From Flavobacteriales bacterium (GTDB lineage: Bacteria; Bacteroidota; Bacteroidia; Flavobacteriales; UBA7430): a stretch of DNA of 39,111 bases. The notes below the pieces were generated by a model. That model was given only the letters and a program-made list of their open reading frames with translations. It had not been told where the DNA came from and made no database searches. This document shows, in pieces, positions 1 to 6,831 of this stretch. The DNA is taken from the NCBI GenBank assembly GCA_029247585.1, contig JAQWKY010000033.1:1-39111 (forward strand), in the 5' to 3' direction. The first letter of the stretch is position 1, and each line of letters starts with the position of its first letter. The position numbers and the translations under genes are program-made.

Positions 1-110
<110 letters not shown>

Positions 111-5582: not shown

Positions 5583-5619
5583 ATACCTCAATCATCATCG
5601 ACTAAAAAAGGTACTAACT

Positions 5620-5654
5620 AAAAAATCCCCTTGAGATTTCTCAAGAGGATTTTG
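5620..5654 (-). terminator. Rho-independent terminator of tRNA-like RNA copy 1
   Basis: Minus strand: an A-rich start, hairpin ATCCTCTTGAG / CTCAAGGGGAT with loop AAAT, then a T run. It begins a few bases after the tRNA-like 3' end and ends the transcript there. The arms are symmetric enough that it could also act for the rightward E1 gene. Confidence 0.85.
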
Positions 5655-5658
5655 TTTG

Positions 5659-5767
5659 CTGTAGGAGAAGGATTCGAACCTCCACGAAGTGGTTAGTCTA
5701 AAAGATTTATTCCAGGACCTTCACCCTCGAGACAGGAGGGCATGTCTGCCAGTTTCATCACCCCACA
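5659..5767 (-). tRNA. Class II (Leu-type) tRNA-like RNA, anticodon-position GUC, copy 1
   Basis: The minus strand folds as a cloverleaf. The acceptor is TGTGGGG/TCCTACA (7 bp with two G-T pairs; an extra C-G pair is possible). U8-G9 is followed by D-stem ATG/CAT around a loop containing GG, matching tRNA-Leu layout (TGATGAAACTGGCAGACATG). The anticodon stem is CCCTC/GAGGG with loop CTGTCTC, and the T arm is GGAGG-TTCGAAT-CCTTC. Loop positions 34-36 read GTC, nominally Asp, yet the body is class II with a ~40-nt variable region. Position 37 is U, where a purine is usual. CCA is not encoded. It could be an unusual tRNA, a regulatory tRNA mimic or a decayed gene. The near-perfect second copy argues against simple decay. 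Confidence 0.6.
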
Positions 5768-5789
5768 GTGTTGTAGTGATTAACTGGTG

Positions 5790-5821
5790 TAAATATAGCA
5801 CAACAGACCGCTTAATTACAA
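5790..5821 (-). promoter_or_regulatory. Promoter of tRNA-like RNA copy 1
   Basis: Minus strand: TTG (5821-5819), 21-bp spacer, TATATTTA (5797-5790), about 22 nt before the RNA. Copy 2 has the same elements and spacing. From here to the second unit (about 5822-6081) the DNA is AT-rich with no gene that I can recognise. Confidence 0.55.
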
Positions 5822-6082
5822 ATAAAACAACAAATAAGCTTTATTTTTATTTAAAATGTAATTAAATAAGGCTTTAATTAACTTTTATTAAATGCAGAGT
5901 CCAATTAATCAATTCAAATTGTCAATTTAATAAAATCAAACACTGATATTTTTGTGGTTTCATCGGGTGGACGAAGGCATTGTTTGCTGATATTGACAAA
6001 ACATTGATGGATATCGCTAGAATAAATACCATTCCGATGAAAAACAAAAGAGTTAACTAAAGTCCTAAAGATGAAATAAACT

Positions 6083-6116
6083 AAAAAATCCTCTTGAGAT
6101 CTCTCAAGAGGATTTT
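6083..6116 (-). terminator. Rho-independent terminator of tRNA-like RNA copy 2
   Basis: Minus strand hairpin ATCCTCTTGAG / CTCAAGAGGAT with loop AGAT, followed by TTTTTT. The stem is perfectly paired, whereas copy 1 has one G-T pair. This supports independent transcription of each copy. Confidence 0.87.
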
Positions 6117-6121
6117 GTTTG

Positions 6122-6229
6122 CTGTAGGAGAAGGATTCGAACCTCCACGAAGTGGTTAGTCTAATGATTTATTCCAGTACCTTCACCCTCGAGACAGGAG
6201 GGCATGTCTGCCAGTTTCATCACCCCACA
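6122..6229 (-). tRNA. Class II (Leu-type) tRNA-like RNA, anticodon-position GUC, copy 2
   Basis: A second copy, 463 bp from the first. Acceptor, D arm, anticodon arm (loop CTGTCTC) and T arm are identical to copy 1. By eye the only differences are in the apical part of the long variable arm (GTACTGG instead of GTCCTGG, and ATCATTAGAC instead of ATCTTTTAGAC). Promoter and terminator are also conserved, so the whole transcription unit was duplicated. Variable-arm pairing looks like GAA-GGT with ACC-CA-TTC, giving an unusually long extra arm. Charging and decoding function are unknown. Annotation software may call it tRNA-Asp, tRNA-Leu or undetermined. Confidence 0.6.
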
Positions 6230-6251
6230 GTGTTGTAGTGATTAACTGATG

Positions 6252-6283
6252 TAAATATAGAACAACAAAGCACTCAATTACAA
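6252..6283 (-). promoter_or_regulatory. Promoter of tRNA-like RNA copy 2
   Basis: Minus strand: TTG (6283-6281), 21-bp spacer, TATATTTA (6259-6252). The -7 to RNA-start distance is the same as in copy 1. It diverges from the Lrp promoter a few tens of bases to the right. Confidence 0.55.
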
Positions 6284-6369: not shown

Positions 6370-6831
6370 ATGGACTCAAATTATCAAATTGACAATATTG
6401 ATCGAAGTATTTTAGGTATTTTAATGAAGGATGCGAAGACTCCGTACACTGAAATCGCCAAAAAATTGATTGTTTCTCCAGGAACCATTCATGTTCGCAT
6501 GAAAAAAATGGAAGATGCGGGGATCGTAAAAAAGAGTCGACTCAATGTGAATTACGAGTTGTTGGGTTACGACATGACTTCCTTTTTAGGAATTTACTTG
6601 GAAAAAGGCTCTAATTACAAGGATGTTATTGAACAATTAAACCAAGTTCCTGAAATTGTTGAAGCTCATTACACGACAGGTGTGTATAGTATCTTTGCTA
6701 AGATACGCTGTAAAAACACCAAACACATGAGACAGGTATTGAATGAAGAAATTCAATCGGTAACCGGCATACAAAGAACAGAAACCATCATTTCCCTTGA
6801 ACAAAGTATCGACAAGCAGATTCTTCTCTAA
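6370..6831 (+). CDS. Lrp/AsnC family transcriptional regulator
   Basis: About 153 residues beginning MDSNYQIDNIDRSILGILM. An N-terminal winged helix-turn-helix (TPYTEIAKKLIVSPGTIHVR, recognition helix around residues 30-50) is followed by a RAM/AsnC ligand-sensing domain (VEAHYTTGVYSIFAKIRCKN..., VTGIQRTETIISLEQSI). Family members form dimers to octamers and sense amino acids or related small molecules. The ligand here cannot be read. The upstream in-frame TTG at 6343 would add nine residues but lies at the predicted transcription start. It is a single-gene unit ending in a strong terminator, divergent from the tRNA-like RNAs. Confidence 0.93.
   Translation: MDSNYQIDNIDRSILGILMKDAKTPYTEIAKKLIVSPGTIHVRMKKMEDAGIVKKSRLNVNYELLGYDMTSFLGIYLEKGSNYKDVIEQLNQVPEIVEAHYTTGVYSIFAKIRCKNTKHMRQVLNEEIQSVTGIQRTETIISLEQSIDKQILL

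Follow-up and report, generated by a model that had tools for sequence, protein, structure and literature searches.

A tRNA-shaped RNA family of Bacteroidota and their phages with an aspartate anticodon loop and a possible part in asparagine synthesis

Introduction

Two small RNA genes lie in tandem in a 39,111-nt stretch of DNA from a Flavobacteriales bacterium (the whole of which is termed the window here), and they raise the question of what a tRNA-like molecule with a leucine-type body and an aspartate anticodon could be for. The preliminary description of the locus proposed class-II cloverleaf RNAs, duplicated as complete transcription units, which would misread aspartate codons if they were charged by LeuRS or SerRS; ordinary decoding was judged unlikely, and a regulator, a decoy or a tRNA with a special charging system were left open. 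Both tRNA-dependent synthesis of asparagine and tRNAs that do not decode are already known. What appears to be new is a phylum-wide, phage-borne, non-decoding RNA that joins the determinants of AspRS and GatCAB and occupies the regulatory place of asnA.

The RNA pair and its flanks

Copy 1 is encoded at positions 5658 to 5767 and copy 2 at positions 6121 to 6229, both on the minus strand; measured from position 1 through the encoded C74, they are 110 and 109 nt long, and they match the covariance model of the family with 129.4 and 133.1 bits, respectively. The acceptor stem reads UGUGGGG/UCCUACA and is followed by G73, the D arm is of the leucine type (AUG-AAACUGGCAGA-CAU), the anticodon arm (CCCUC-CUGUCUC-GAGGG) places GUC at positions 34–36 before U37 and C38, and the T arm reads GGAGG-UUCGAAU-CCUUC. 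The sequence places the anticodon loop CUGUCUC at 5729 to 5735 in copy 1 (minus strand; GUC at 5731-5733, then U37 and C38) and at 6191 to 6197 in copy 2 (minus strand). The variable (V) arm is approximately 38-40 nt long and consists, in copy 1 (5686 to 5723, minus strand), of a basal stem GAAG/CUUC, a second stem UGG/CCA, a conserved internal loop AAUAAA / CUAA and a small apical hairpin.

All sequence differences between the two copies are confined to the V arm, as had been noted earlier, and the proposed duplication as a transcription unit is borne out by a promoter-like stretch and a terminator at each copy. The rho-independent terminators lie at 5618 to 5657 (minus strand; a hairpin and a U run, the hairpin also being found in an Rfam E-value scan) and at 6081 to 6120 (minus strand; sequence and Rfam E-value scan). 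Putative promoters of the Bacteroidota type (TTG ... TATATTTA) lie 5' of copy 1 at 5786 to 5810 and 5' of copy 2 at 6248 to 6275 (both minus strand), and a promoter-like motif with TATATTTA is common to the regions upstream of both copies and of relatives. The pair is flanked by a pyruvate-dehydrogenase-E1-like gene and by a gene for an AsnC-type (Lrp/AsnC family) regulator that is divergent from the RNAs (6370 to 6831, plus strand; likely start at ATG 6370, longest ORF from TTG 6343). ARAGORN calls no tRNA anywhere in the window, including at the two copies, and Rfam (including RF00005, at E values up to 10) gives no match at either RNA. An ordinary tRNA-Asp is also encoded in the same genome. 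The 5' end of a 16S rRNA gene lies at the contig edge (window 1-108, minus strand).

A conserved cloverleaf

Minimum free energy folding of one copy at a time misses the cloverleaf, and the evidence for it is therefore comparative. Alignment of relatives gives a 7/5 cloverleaf with a three-bp D stem of the leucine type and a long V domain. The hallmarks of a tRNA are all found in the alignments and their covariation: a 7-bp acceptor stem, D, anticodon and T arms, U8, A14, G18 G19, and U54 U55 C56 A58. Among 14 relatives from two families, 99.2% of the cells are paired and six pairs have changed on both sides; among 58 distinct RNAs, 98.3% are paired and 15 pairs have changed on both sides. In the larger alignment, 229 cells changed on both sides were observed against 54.6 expected from shuffles, a figure matched in none of 500 shuffles, and sliding the pairing partners abolished the covariation signal. 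Compensated changes occur across the relatives in acceptor pairs 4-7 and in the stems of the D, V and T arms. On these comparisons the family is a tRNA-shaped structured RNA, with a predicted fold conserved beyond chance; the tandem class-II cloverleaves with the loop CUGUCUC and a leucine-type D arm, and the placing of an Asp anticodon GUC on such a body, were thus read correctly in the preliminary description.

From its base outwards, the V domain holds a stem of ~4 bp, a further stem and an internal loop (RAYAAA opposite CUAA); its apical part varies from 4 to >60 nt, such that the whole arm spans ~35 to >100 nt among relatives. A conserved GGGUUGACCAC hairpin is found in the apical V domain of 33 of 82 diverse sequences (for example locus L139, 3152-3307) and is absent in the window's own family, f1.

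There is virtually no chance that the element is a short protein-coding or leader sequence and not an RNA gene: although a frame across the D and anticodon arms (ATG AAA CTG GCA GAC ATG CCC TCC TGT CTC GAG) is open in both window copies, the ATG is TTG or ACG in relatives, insertions in their D loops shift the frame, and their stems change compensatorily.

Distribution in Bacteroidota and phages

Family members score ~80-134 bits with the covariance model, ordinary tRNA-Leu at most 62 bits, and the family extends across Bacteroidota, with more than 150 distinct RNAs, often in tandem; restriction to a single genome, raised beforehand as a possible outcome, is thereby excluded. Within the order, 10 of the 11 genomes of family f1 have homologues (one of them only a partial match where the contig ends), as do some f9 genomes and a single f12 genome, and a second family carries homologues at 77-79% identity. 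A pattern scan of named genomes, in which the pattern included the anticodon loop, returned at least 120 stretches; among the matches listed, nearly all are from Bacteroidota (including Cyclobacteriaceae, Flammeovirga, Saprospiraceae, Chitinophagaceae, Hymenobacter, Marivirga and Sporocytophaga), with one ‘Rickettsiales’ bin that is likely mislabelled, and tandem arrays of two to five copies are frequent. The RNA was also found in 40 of 392 genomes spread over the phylum, another class included.

The family is not limited to cellular genomes. Two viral scans found 29 IMG/VR contigs with the RNA, several of whose proteins have matches among the terminase, DNA polymerase or exonuclease families of phages; three of these contigs have phage tRNA genes near the RNA. 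The megaphage record LR756504.1 (636 kb) gives a BLAST match over 84% of the query at 76% identity; a BLAST search against plasmids gave no match. On one IMG/VR phage contig (L246, 1388-3090) the RNA stands side by side with a cluster of tRNA genes and a gene for tmRNA (Rfam RF00023). Rfam scans of 20 relative loci identified no family at the RNA, and searches of mainly open-access literature found no description of it. A structured RNA family common to phages and their hosts in a major bacterial phylum appears to be undescribed and to have escaped both Rfam and ARAGORN.

Fixed nucleotides and charging identity

Loop statistics were drawn from 73 distinct covariance-model matches, for which the loop was no criterion of selection; as training of the model had used CUGUCUC loops, variants may be under-sampled. 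A set of 151 RNAs had been gathered with a pattern that contains the loop and was therefore left out of these statistics. U35, C36, C38, G73 and the pairs U1-A72, G2-C71 and U3-A70 are present in 73 of 73 RNAs, and G34 in 70, the exceptions, all of them Glu anticodons, being UUC (genome G662) and CUC (G543 and G704). At position 33, U is found in 61, A in seven, C in four and G in one; position 37 is U in 63, C in six and G in four, and is never A, a single phage copy outside the 73 having A37. U33 forms the anticodon U-turn, and because neither U33 nor a purine at 37 is kept, the RNA is unlikely to act as an ordinary decoder. The earlier doubt about decoding, which had leaned in part on U37 in the two copies, is thus strengthened across the phylum, and a standard tRNA with some other, consistent anticodon is excluded.

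The strong determinants of aspartate identity are G73, G34, U35, C36 and C38, and G1-C72 and G2-C71 are conserved in bacterial tRNA-Asp (PMC9976931). The RNA carries the set G34 U35 C36 C38 G73, but has U1-A72 in all 73 cases in place of G1-C72. According to the same review of tRNA identity, amidation of Asp-tRNA-Asn is directed by U1-A72, and G1-C72 and U20a protect Asp-tRNA-Asp (PMC9976931); the RNA follows this rule for a GatCAB substrate, having U1-A72 and no U20a (C20-A20a in the 151-RNA set). In the same genome, tRNA-Asp has G1-C72 and the loop CUGUCAC, and tRNA-Asn has U1-A72. Judged by its nucleotides, the RNA is a combination of an Asp anticodon loop with an Asn first pair, from which decoding features seem to have been dropped.

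The charging by LeuRS or SerRS that had been envisaged, with misreading of Asp codons, finds no support in these data. The identity set that is kept, G2-C71 included, is that of AspRS, and G73 (73/73) stands where Leu identity has A73, which excludes Leu; Ser identity also seems unsupported, as conservation of the anticodon loop is Asp-like and SerRS takes no account of this loop. The 8/4, 9/3 or 8/5 acceptor domain of allo-tRNAs and tRNA-Sec is not seen (the RNA is 7/5, and RF01852 gives no match), nor is the tmRNA arrangement of a tag ORF and no anticodon arm. The invariant C74 of the 151 RNAs was considered as a special mark and rejected, the tRNA-Asp and tRNA-Asn of the genome having C74 too. 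The signature that separates discriminating from non-discriminating AspRS showed no difference between genomes with and without the RNA.

AsnC and other neighbours

The AsnC-type protein of the window matches Pfam AsnC_trans_reg and scores 180 bits with NCBIfam NF008384 (below its cut-off of 227), the next model scoring 76. Of 116 genome loci, 50 have an AsnC-type gene that is divergent from the RNA, an arrangement seen in f1 and f9 and at both of the Glu-anticodon loci examined (L338 and L339). The E. coli genes asnC and asnA are divergent too, with a geometry that matches that of asnC and the RNA. Recurrent neighbours are AsnC, SufB, acyl-CoA synthetase and the ammonium transporter Amt; the RNA directly follows the transporter gene in f9 and is two genes away from it in genome G116. 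The AsnC linkage may in part be old synteny (sufB-asnC-RNA-fadD, where fadD is the acyl-CoA synthetase). Phage copies have varied neighbours. Two neighbour clusters that were considered as AsnB (downstream cluster 3) and AsnRS (cluster 1) were rejected as such, their sequences being those of acyl-CoA synthetase and SufB. Between amt and asnC in f9 (L091-L095), a conserved 86-aa ORF lies upstream of the ammonium transporter and has no Pfam or NCBIfam match.

Co-occurrence with gatB and the asparagine enzymes

A phylogenetic profile of 80 genomes, 40 with and 40 without the RNA, revealed gatB in all 40 RNA-positive genomes compared with 27 of the 40 RNA-negative ones. AsnRS is encoded in each of the 40 RNA-positive genomes and GlnRS in 27 of them. 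Decoding depends on GatCAB only in genomes that lack AsnRS or GlnRS, and the telling set is thus formed by the Bacteroidia that have both. Within the 39 genomes of this set, 27 have both the RNA and gatB and 12 have neither (Fisher p = 2.6e-10, uncorrected for phylogeny). The 12 are mostly Flavobacteriales, and one genome without RNA or gatB (G410) belongs to a family, f18, with many RNA-positive members. The model detected no RNA in four genomes of other classes with gatB and GlnRS, nor in some gatB-positive genomes without Asn synthetases (f12, G059).

AsnA is found in four of the 80 genomes, three of them RNA-positive, which leaves 37 of the 40 RNA-positive genomes without it, and RNA-positive genomes of f1, f9 and f12 have no match to either AsnA or AsnB. 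AsnB-like proteins occur in many of the larger RNA-positive genomes; AsnB of the E. coli type (TIGR01536 positions 1 to ~385 only) occurs in Bacteroidia that are gatB-negative and not in RNA-positive genomes. Across the 80 Bacteroidota genomes, GatCAB and the ~560-aa AsnB of the E. coli type appear mutually exclusive in Bacteroidia, gatB-negative genomes mostly having AsnB. Bacteria with AsnRS, GlnRS and GatCAB and no Asn synthetase are described as able to make Asn on tRNA-Asn via a non-discriminating AspRS, and Bacteroidetes genera are listed as having this set of genes (PMC4206432).

A candidate carrier for asparagine synthesis

The best explanation at present, which is nevertheless held tentatively, is that the RNA is a dedicated non-decoding carrier for RNA-dependent synthesis of Asn, served by AspRS and then GatCAB and controlled by AsnC. 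Transcription would be under the control of the divergently encoded AsnC, by analogy with asnA in E. coli. An ordinary, discriminating AspRS would aspartylate the RNA, a step proposed because G34 U35 C36 C38 G73 and G2-C71 are present, and GatCAB would turn Asp-RNA into Asn-RNA, as proposed because the first pair is the U1-A72 of tRNA-Asn and not the protective G1-C72 of tRNA-Asp. Without a fixed U33 or a purine at 37, and with a bulky V domain, the Asn-RNA would stay out of translation; hydrolysis could then free its Asn, or the Asn could be passed on, for AsnRS to load onto tRNA-Asn. Phages, through the copies that they carry, would sustain the supply of Asn. Of the options first left open, special charging, with a metabolic role, is favoured because of the co-occurrence with GatCAB, the AsnC linkage and U1-A72. 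With a little more reserve, the RNA could be regarded as a cofactor of amino-acid biosynthesis that takes the regulatory slot of asnA, is charged by AspRS and undergoes amidation by GatCAB, and in phages as an auxiliary metabolic RNA.

Several observations count against a carrier. AspRS prefers G1-C72, which the RNA does not have, and the body is unusual for AspRS; we know of no AspRS that accepts a class-II D arm and V domain, and binding of GatCAB to a class-II body is putative. AsnB-like proteins are also encoded in many larger RNA-positive genomes, and AsnA in three; no RNA is detectable in some gatB-positive genomes; and few independent losses stand behind the gatB profile. Nor does a carrier role account for the conserved AYAAA/CUAA loop of the V domain, and no enzyme was assigned to the release of Asn.

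If the RNA is a carrier, tRNA-dependent synthesis of an amino acid would be separated from translation, and the retention of GatCAB in many Bacteroidota with both AsnRS and GlnRS would be explained. It would also supply a route to Asn in genomes seemingly without any Asn synthetase, give phages an RNA-based metabolic gene, and make the relation of tRNA-bound amino-acid synthesis to the genetic code testable with an RNA that no longer decodes.

Comparison with known systems

The RNA shares G34 U35 C36, C38, G73, G2-C71 and the loop CUGUC-C with bacterial tRNA-Asp, but differs from it in the first pair, the leucine-type D arm, the long V domain, the lack of a fixed U33 and A37, and in escaping ARAGORN and Rfam. 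With the tRNA-Asn of organisms that use a non-discriminating AspRS and GatCAB (Deinococcus, Thermus and Bdellovibrio; PMC4206432) it has in common U1-A72 and G73, the expected GatCAB route from Asp to Asn, the presence of AsnRS and, in some genomes, the absence of an Asn synthetase; in contrast to that tRNA-Asn it has an Asp anticodon, so that an ordinary AspRS would suffice, and looks unable to decode. The three-bp D stem, the AAAYUGGYARA-like loop and a stem-forming variable arm are those of the class-II tRNA-Leu and tRNA-Ser, from which G73 (not the A73 of Leu), the length and conserved internal loop of the V arm and the Asp anticodon set it apart. Allo-tRNAs and tRNA-Sec-like tRNAs likewise have a long variable arm and an anticodon at odds with the body, but are 8/4 or 9/3 molecules with Ser identity from Clostridia, Proteobacteria and Acidobacteria, as opposed to a 7/5 molecule with Asp-type identity from Bacteroidota (PMC7609411). 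In E. coli as here AsnC is divergent from its partner, which is the enzyme gene asnA there and the RNA in the same slot here. The cell-wall tRNA-Gly of staphylococci is a non-proteinogenic, tRNA-shaped RNA that is aminoacylated and kept out of translation; the present RNA, whose charging is putative, differs in amino acid, lineage and likely pathway.

Alternative explanations

It seems unlikely, though it deserves some weight, that the RNA is a regulator or decoy, not a carrier, and binds AspRS, GatCAB, AsnC or a tRNA-targeting nuclease, for example by titrating the transamidosome or by protecting the tRNAs of phage and host against an anticodon nuclease. The conserved internal loop of the V domain suggests contact with a protein or RNA, and the multi-copy tandem arrays and the phage copies, some near tRNA clusters, are consistent with such a role; however, G73 and acceptor pairs 1-3 are absolutely kept and the other acceptor pairs drift, which suggests a chemical use of the 3' end, and a decoy of an anticodon nuclease should keep U33 and position 37, both of which vary. 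Less likely again is a donor of Asp or Asn in a non-ribosomal reaction, with a lipid, a peptide, the cell wall or a natural product as acceptor, comparable to the role of non-proteinogenic tRNA-Gly in staphylococci. The retained AspRS identity set, the apparent lack of decoding and the presence of gatB in every RNA-positive genome tested would suit a donor, but no aminoacyl-transferase is among the genes that recur beside the RNA, and the varied neighbours of the phage copies also argue against it.

We give little credence to a scaffold or carrier of the transamidosome that acts as a general GatCAB cofactor, for Glu-to-Gln as well as Asp-to-Asn, with position 34 setting the amino acid. That all G34 exceptions are Glu anticodons, with both loci examined divergent from AsnC, and that G543 has AsnA and no GlnRS would fit it; but Glu anticodons occur in only three of 73 RNAs, G662 has GlnRS, and GluRS identity is not evident in the acceptor and D arm. 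Finally, it is very improbable that the RNA works in translation as an atypical tRNA-Asp for GAC/GAU, perhaps when the cell is stressed or infected by a phage: the GUC anticodon, the AspRS determinants, the full set of L-shape tertiary bases and the phage copies near tRNA arrays are set against an unconserved U33, a position 37 that is mostly a pyrimidine, a V domain of up to >100 nt and the presence of a normal tRNA-Asp.

Variant and scattered copies

The Glu-anticodon members are represented by L254 / L339 (G662), L273 / L338 (G543) and L275 (G704), and a switch to Glu/Gln is possible in them. Near full copies, L126 (5760-5817) and L157 (5263-5356, minus strand) contain elements made up of acceptor stem, T arm and a small hairpin only, which may be minihelix-like derivatives or remnants. 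In Cyclobacteriaceae (for example L108, L109 and L112), scattered copies are followed by a near-identical stretch, GGTTATTTTGGGTTTATTGTTAATTGACTAAAGC, and carry a palindromic GAGCTC at the tip of the V domain; together these suggest spread as a cassette, and perhaps RNA-RNA contact.
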